A stretch of 64,000 nucleotides of DNA from an uncultured Sphingomonadales bacterium (lineage in GTDB: Bacteria > Pseudomonadota > Alphaproteobacteria > Sphingomonadales > Sphingomonadaceae), in the NCBI GenBank assembly GCA_903821605.1, contig CAIJLZ010000013.1, forward strand, positions 62,001 to 126,000. Reading direction: 5' to 3'. The position numbers were made by a program, and so were the translations under genes. The notes below the pieces were generated by a model that had not been told where the DNA came from, made no database searches, and was given only the letters and a program-made list of their open reading frames with translations. Of this stretch, positions 22,757 to 22,912 are shown piece after piece; the stretch's first letter is position 1, and every line of letters begins with the position of its first letter.

Positions 22757-22912
22757 GAATCAGACTCCTGACATAGGCGCGACTCGCGGGTCAAGGCCGA
22801 GTCGCGGGGGATGAGGCTGCGGTTTGAGCGGAACGAAAGGAGTCCCCCACAGCATGTTGAGTCCTGCAAGGGGGATGGGACTCAACCGGTTGTGGCGTTG
22901 CCCAGAAGACTC
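22757..22912. promoter_or_regulatory. Cluster of eight GANTC sites upstream of ccrM
   Basis: GANTC occurs at 22757 (GAATC), 22763 (GACTC), 22781 (GACTC), 22799 (GAGTC), 22840 (GAGTC), 22859 (GAGTC), 22879 (GACTC) and 22908 (GACTC). That is eight palindromic sites in 156 bp, against about one per 256 bp for random equal-base sequence. They fill the ccrM promoter region, so the enzyme's own target sites probably gate its transcription. Confidence 0.85.

Follow-up and report, generated by a model that had tools for sequence, protein, structure and literature searches.

An ordered array of GANTC sites upstream of ccrM in Sphingomonadaceae as a predicted methylation-sensitive operator and promoter

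In the window analysed here (the whole stretch of 64,000 nucleotides from an uncultured Sphingomonadales bacterium), the DNA upstream of ccrM is, judged by comparison with its relatives, an ordered and conserved control region and more than a dense cluster of GANTC sites. We regard it as likely that this region is a dedicated operator and promoter of ccrM, which acts as DNA and gives a predicted methylation-sensitive autoregulation; the sensitivity to methylation is predicted because CcrM sites overlap both the promoter and the distal operator. The gene is probably switched by a protein assembly able to read CcrM's own mark. The proximal part would be a sigma-70-type promoter, in which TTGAC is followed by a GANTC in the spacer and most relatives have a second one that overlaps the first base of the -10 box; the distal part (S1 to S4) would be an operator with a long GANTC dyad, at which one or more putative proteins would sit on the helix face of RNA polymerase. 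Since CcrM acts on these sites, their full, hemi- or non-methylation once the fork has passed most likely alters binding, and CcrM output would then feed back on ccrM transcription; we infer the protein binding and the sign of the feedback. The features are listed in Table 1.

Table 1. Features of ccrM and its upstream region (positions counted from the first letter of the window; middle bases of S1 to S4 given in the sense of ccrM).
Feature	Position	Strand	Remarks
ccrM, GANTC adenine methyltransferase, 378 aa	21596..22732	-	Pfam N6_N4_Mtase + RAMA; PDB match
Eighth GANTC, adjoins the 22763 site	22757..22761	-	private among three genomes of the genus
P2-like GANTC, +27 of TTGAC (most relatives: +19)	22763..22767	-	kept in congeners
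P1, GANTC at +9 from first T of TTGAC, fits YGAKTCK	22781..22785	-	
TTGAC, -35-like, 62 nt before ATG	22790..22794	-	69 bp from S3
X, GANTC just upstream of TTGAC, fits YGAKTCK	22799..22803	-	kept in congeners
S2-S4 block, match of model R1	22829..22887	-	E 6.9e-14
S4 (GACTC), then TTTCGTTC box at 22831-22838	22840..22844	-	kept in congeners
Long dyad with S2 and S3	22847..22895	.	arms 22847-22864 / 22878-22895, 18 nt, 83% complementary
S3, dyad right arm (GACTC, GACTCAACAT...GTGG)	22859..22863	-	kept in congeners
S2, dyad left arm (GAGTC)	22879..22883	-	kept in congeners
S1, distal GANTC (GAGTC), CAC-rich box after	22908..22912	-	not kept in the two congeners
Intrinsic terminator, downstream of acnA	22978..23011	-	15-pair stem, T tail

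The ATG at 22732 was our choice of start codon for ccrM, and the same ATG is kept in two congeners. The product shows the domains of the CcrM class, N6_N4_Mtase (PF01555) and a C-terminal RAMA (PF18755), and its best match among solved structures is 6pbd, Modification methylase CcrMI (E 3.1e-156); on this evidence it is a CcrM (beta-class GANTC adenine methyltransferase, RAMA-type), and methylation of GANTC in vivo is predicted. The upstream gene (23039-25714, minus strand) is presumably acnA, a name taken from the sequence-only reading of the window and by eye. Control by the neighbouring gene was considered and rejected, because the upstream gene varies among loci (acnA in the window and in L104; other ORFs elsewhere, by eye).

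An earlier reading of the window, made from the sequence alone, had noted eight GANTC sites in the 156 bp before ccrM (22757-22912), bounded by the ccrM start and the acnA terminator; all eight were recovered at their positions (Table 1), and they do lie between these two boundaries. The window as a whole holds 96 GANTC where 280 are expected from dinucleotide shuffles; the cluster thus stands out all the more, lying in DNA that is otherwise poor in the motif. A sample of the same genome, composed of the window and 40 fetched stretches (827,562 of 2,670,314 bp, 31% of the genome), contained 1,036 GANTC (1.25/kb), and the ccrM cluster was the sole 156-bp stretch with at least six sites, so that the density check which the reading had proposed turned up no equal anywhere else in the 31% sampled. 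The runner-up has five sites in 156 bp (L091:330-420, contig C4) and lies upstream of an ORF (459-1169) that is glutathione S-transferase-like by eye. The Poisson chance of at least eight GANTC in a given 156 bp, calculated from the first 427,562 bp sampled, is 2.8e-11. Fifteen other palindromes of the form XYNY'X' occur 0-3 times each in the ccrM stretch; commoner palindromes reach 7 (AANTT), 8 (ATNAT), 13 (CGNCG) and 15 (GCNGC) per 156 bp elsewhere in the 427,562-bp sample, so that eight sites are remarkable because GANTC is rare. Nor is the cluster lost in close relatives: measured from ccrM, six of the eight sites recur at unchanged positions in two congeneric genomes, the exceptions being 22908 and 22757. 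Sites X and P1 form a perfect inverted repeat (22778-22786 / 22798-22806) that flanks TTGAC.

To place the cluster in its family we used 81 loci, i.e., the window, 75 from a set of 80 loci, and L104, L105 and L112-L114; L016 and L033, which have no family assignment, were included as Sphingomonadaceae. In the 260 bp upstream of ccrM (a stretch that ends at about codon 3) GANTC reaches 22.9/kb, whereas the remaining DNA of these loci has 1.36/kb; the enrichment is 16.8-fold, compared with 0.6-3.6-fold for seven control palindromes, and at least three GANTC are present in 80 of the 81 loci. A count of eight is not special in itself, as the family median is 6 and the range 2-10. Common to the loci listed is the order of the sites, which, read in the sense of ccrM, runs from S1 (GAGTC) through a CAC-rich box, S2 (GAGTC) and S3 (GACTC followed by AAcATcttGTGg), and on the promoter side from S4 (GACTC with the TTTCGTTC box) through a spacer to TTGAC, a GANTC at +8/+9 and a GANTC at +19. 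Among 153 family loci the middle base is G in all 146 loci with S1 and in all 132 with S2, and C in all 137 with S3 and in 93 of the 96 with S4. CcrM methylates GANTC whatever the middle base; the fixed middle bases of S1 to S4 thus imply a further reader of an oriented, extended sequence.

A weight matrix of S2-S4, built on 62 strict loci with the window among them, gave 75 of the 81 loci a score higher than that of any shuffle (81 in total, one for each locus); the window shows the block by score, order and orientation, though it helped to build the matrix. Six loci (L005, L016, L019, L032, L039 and L074) fell below the threshold, and two of the distances printed for them (79 and 78) would fit the spacing described below, the others being meaningless without the block. 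The periodicity from site to site inside the block is about 9.75-10 bp, not 10.5 bp, and is shared by descent within the family; outside the family the pair-distance R at 10.5 bp was 0.207, above the 95% level of the null (0.161) but below its maximum (0.244). The pair-distance periodicity therefore serves as supporting evidence only.

We then searched with a sequence model of the S2-S4 block (R1), made from 31 loci selected out of 75. In the window's own genome R1 matched only the ccrM region at E values up to 10 (150 of 511 first-look candidates scored), where it matched both strands at the dyad, i.e., the block itself and the dyad's own reverse strand. It matched 110 of 149 family genomes, the other 39 having no match at E 0.01, and ccrM was present in all 89 matched stretches that were fetched from these 110 genomes, mostly the better-scoring ones. 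Searched against 240 genomes of the class, R1 gave eight matches at E <=0.01, two in the family and six outside it, and five of the six lie about 90-200 bp upstream of the genome's own ccrM (G123, G227, G178, G152 and G107, from four coded families). The sixth (G017:C4:66099-66136, L300; E 0.008) is the sole outside match away from ccrM and is probably a chance match. All outside matches span the dyad part of the model only, and the dyad is also visible in L297. Because the dyad precedes ccrM in other families, it is, on these comparisons, either older than the Sphingomonadaceae or arose more than once at ccrM. A shared helical spacing between dyad and core outside the family was rejected, as the few cases (about 41, 54 and 65 bp) fit no common series.

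The promoter side of the region was followed outside the family in 71 loci of the same class (26 best CcrM matches, 40 picked for distinct families and 5 from the set of 80 loci mentioned above), a set that is not a random draw and includes the near-copies L078/L115 and L128/L129. A GANTC stands exactly at +19 of TTGAC in 34 of these 71 loci, compared with 1 of 422 other TTGAC there; counted by coded family the site is present in 29 of 60 and lacking in 31. By a looser test (GANTC 6-21 nt after TTGAC) 44 of the 71 loci scored, against 7 of 1200 control stretches. With one locus per family, position +24 is A in 29 of 29 and position +28 is T in 29 of 29; if TTGAC is the -35 box and the spacer is 17 bp long, they correspond to bases two and six of a -10 hexamer CAnnnT, whose first base, C, is the last base of the +19 GANTC. 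This overlap suggests that adenine methylation could act directly on promoter opening. In the Sphingomonadaceae, 118 of 153 loci have the +19 site (+24 is A in 99% and +28 is T in 67% of the 118), and a GANTC at +8 or +9 was counted 107 times in the 153 loci; seven of the 153 have no GANTC within 5-26 nt after TTGAC, and 12 of the 71 outside loci have none at all in the 260 bp upstream of ccrM. In 40 of the 60 families there is a GANTC either at +7 to +10 or at +19, and 24 of these 40 have a further GANTC 13-17 bp before TTGAC, a count made without a control set. TTGATTC-like GANTC sites about 15 bp before TTGAC are common outside the family (e.g., L131, L140, L149 and L159).

The window's own core departs from this arrangement, with GANTC at +9, +27 and +33 and none at +19 (its congeners have +9 and +27), so that the combination of GANTC at +19, A at +24 and T at +28 is absent from it. 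Neither a recognisable -10 box nor a consensus promoter was found in the window core; P1 at +9 provides a GANTC in the interval between -35 and -10, though the -10 is not recognised there. A wider regulon of promoters with the -10 overlap was rejected: the pattern TTG[AC]H-N14-GANTCANNNT has no occurrence in 827,562 bp of the window's own genome and three under a relaxed form, and the window's own ccrM itself falls outside the pattern.

Among the 75 family loci that scored above the shuffles, the S3-TTGAC distance is 68-69 bp in 6, 78-81 bp in 60 and 90-91 bp in 9, with none between. The 78 fresh loci, a set independent of discovery (the 89 R1-matched stretches less 10 duplicates and L195, whose block stands farther from the coding sequence, beyond extra DNA), gave 69 (2 loci), 71 (1), 78-81 (63), 89-91 (11) and 100 bp (1), and the combined 153 loci fall into the classes 68-71, 78-81, 89-91 and 100 bp, in steps of about 10.5 bp. 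For S3-TTGAC in the 153 loci the circular concentration at 10.5 bp reaches 0.92, while two control distances, from TTGAC to codon 23 and to the start codon, give 0.18 and 0.26; the empty gaps between the classes are a stronger point than the value of 0.92, because most loci share one length. On a CcrM tree of the 75 loci the spacing class changed 9 times by parsimony, and for the middle class 8 changes are forced by well-supported branches; on the tree of all 153 loci (FastTree) there were 18 changes, with 7 forced for the middle class, and 17 remain without the window's genus, so that the spacing argument is independent of that genus. Repeated changes by whole turns, with 1-2 bp of play, are the pattern expected from a face-of-helix contact of a distal protein with the promoter, and the steps of about 10.5 bp imply, as far as spacing can tell, that the proteins would sit on one face of the helix. 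For the genus of the window the 69-bp class may reflect a TTGAC that moved, because the window core lacks the +19 GANTC and a clear -10.

Which proteins might read the region was considered from the genes encoded. GcrA is the leading candidate at the core sites; it is encoded in the genome (PF07750, 123.5 bits, over the cut-off), and among 14 control genomes PF07750 matches Caulobacter but also Sulfolobus. GcrA is a sigma-2-binding factor at methylated promoters (PMC7403470, in part), and the position of the core CcrM sites would allow sigma-2-bound GcrA to act there. A GANTC between -10 and -35 accompanies a distinct class of cell-cycle expression in Caulobacter, where ctrA P1 has a GANTC at -29 (PMC4287350, in part). 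A further-reaching alternative, which we consider unlikely but worth weighing, is that several GcrA molecules together occupy every GANTC and bring in sigma-70 RNA polymerase. It would fit the presence of gcrA, the core sites between -35 and -10, and the extended motif YGAKTCK, which is matched in the window at 22781, 22799 and 22908 and is somewhat commoner in the family at S1 (59/146) and S2 (45/132) than genome-wide (282/1036). However, the motif does not exceed the genome-wide rate at S3 (35/137) or S4 (4/96) and is rarer at the two core sites (13/125 and 10/120), so that it was rejected as the cause of conservation, and the extra conserved flanks (AACATcttGTGG, TTTCGTTC) suggest another specificity. 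The motif is not decisive against GcrA, because B. subvibrioides shows no preference for an extended motif (PMC7987155, in part). The proposal of a site for a GcrA-like regulator is thus retained as possible at the proximal sites, given that GcrA is encoded, that the interval from -35 to -10 contains GANTC and that YGAKTCK fits 22781 and 22799; it is weakened there by the rarity of the motif at the family's core sites. The genome's own gcrA (L141, 1450-2199, minus strand) has no GANTC within about 800 bp upstream, unlike ccrM.

MucR-type occlusion, in which Ros/MucR proteins would bind the sites and keep them unmethylated, seems improbable to us. MucR prefers AT-rich DNA, a preference that the GC-rich operator does not match. 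In favour of occlusion, two ROS_MUCR genes are present in the genome (L273 on contig C11 and L274 on C4), and Caulobacter MucR shields GANTC from CcrM (PMC5172544, in part). The data tie neither GcrA nor the two Ros/MucR proteins to the S1-S4 block.

The sequence-only reading had further supposed a graded or cooperative methylation switch. Its cooperative half agrees with the conserved, ordered and helically registered sites, which favour multi-site control; graded counting is not supported at the distal sites. A counter of interchangeable substrate sites whose number sets the response would accommodate site numbers that are large and differ between regions (2-10 in the 81 family loci) and the one site private to the window genome, but S1-S4 keep their order, their flanks and their middle bases, and the distance of S3 to the promoter is quantised; these features speak against a counter, and we give it little credence. 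We think it very unlikely that the S2/S3 inverted repeat serves as an RNA leader, i.e., a hairpin or attenuator of the ccrM transcript: the arms are complementary and the five consensus pairs persist in almost every one of 31 sequences, but compensatory change was found in none of the five pairs (which says little, as the pairs hardly vary), no Rfam family exceeds its gathering score, and the whole-turn spacing is to a promoter-like TTGAC downstream of the repeat. Chance or a general intergenic enrichment, which averages more than 1.5-fold for GANTC in alphaproteobacterial intergenic regions (PMC3973325, in part), can practically be set aside in view of a density unique in 31% of the genome and of position-by-position conservation in congeners and family.

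A dedicated operator and promoter of ccrM would bear on how CcrM is confined to a brief part of the cell cycle in bacteria other than Caulobacter; the operator also gives exact bases to mutate and a bait to pull down the putative regulator. More tentatively, and as a proposal that we find plausible rather than probable, much of the Alphaproteobacteria may share an ancestral self-reading ccrM promoter with the -10/GANTC overlap and an upstream dyad for a putative ccrM-dedicated regulator on the polymerase face; if true, this would amount to a methylase-specific autoregulatory assembly that sets the timing and amount of CcrM. Methylation-linked control of ccrM is already known in principle. An operator with ordered sites, its quantised spacing along the helix and, in many families, a GANTC that overlaps the -10 box appear to be new within the literature searched, which in the parts covered gave no description of such an architecture; overlap is possible with the original papers on the Caulobacter ccrM promoter and the GcrA papers of 2015 and 2018. 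In particular, the architecture was not met in the portions seen of PMC2877005, PMC8116508, PMC3667746, PMC7987155, PMC3973325, PMC5172544 and PMC11514494. Two of these resemble our work in counting GANTC in promoter regions: one counted the sites upstream of cell-cycle genes and held that control by methylation is not derivable from counts (PMC2877005, in part), and the other counted up to five or six before ctrA in Alphaproteobacteria (PMC8116508, in part), whereas architecture, orientation, helical spacing and -10 overlap were not found in the portions of either.

Among methylation-sensitive switches, Dam/Lrp (pap) and Dam/OxyR (agn43) are alike in that methylation sites are embedded in the operators of another protein; they differ in methylase and site, and here the regulated gene is the methylase itself. 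The Caulobacter GcrA/CcrM sigma-70 promoters (ctrA P1, podJ P2 and mipZ) also have GANTC between -35 and -10 (PMC4287350, in part); the ccrM region differs from them in its additional phased block on the distal side and in a core without enrichment of YGAKTCK.

Another related system is the ccrM promoter of Caulobacter crescentus, which is activated by CtrA and contains GANTC; both have GANTC near the promoter, and in both CcrM's own gene is a target of its mark, as predicted for the window. The CtrA box is TTAA-N7-TTAA or TTAACCAT. In contrast to the Caulobacter promoter, the window stretch contains no TTAA, and hence no CtrA promoter of the Caulobacter type was found there, nor does it contain a DnaA-like box, and it has the distal operator of four oriented sites. 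In the family a TTAAC box, presumably CtrA-like, lies in the spacer between S4 and TTGAC in 71 of 153 loci. A DnaA-like box, by the motif that we take for it, stands 28-29 bp after TTGAC in 57 of the 153 loci (62 have one anywhere within 60 bp), about where transcription would start, and DnaA may therefore exert an extra control of ccrM in many relatives. In L195 (G389:C1; 420 bp before codon 23) the core, made up of TTGAC, two GANTC and a DnaA-like box, is separated from the distant ccrM coding sequence by about 270 bp of extra DNA, which looks like the insertion of an element into the leader.
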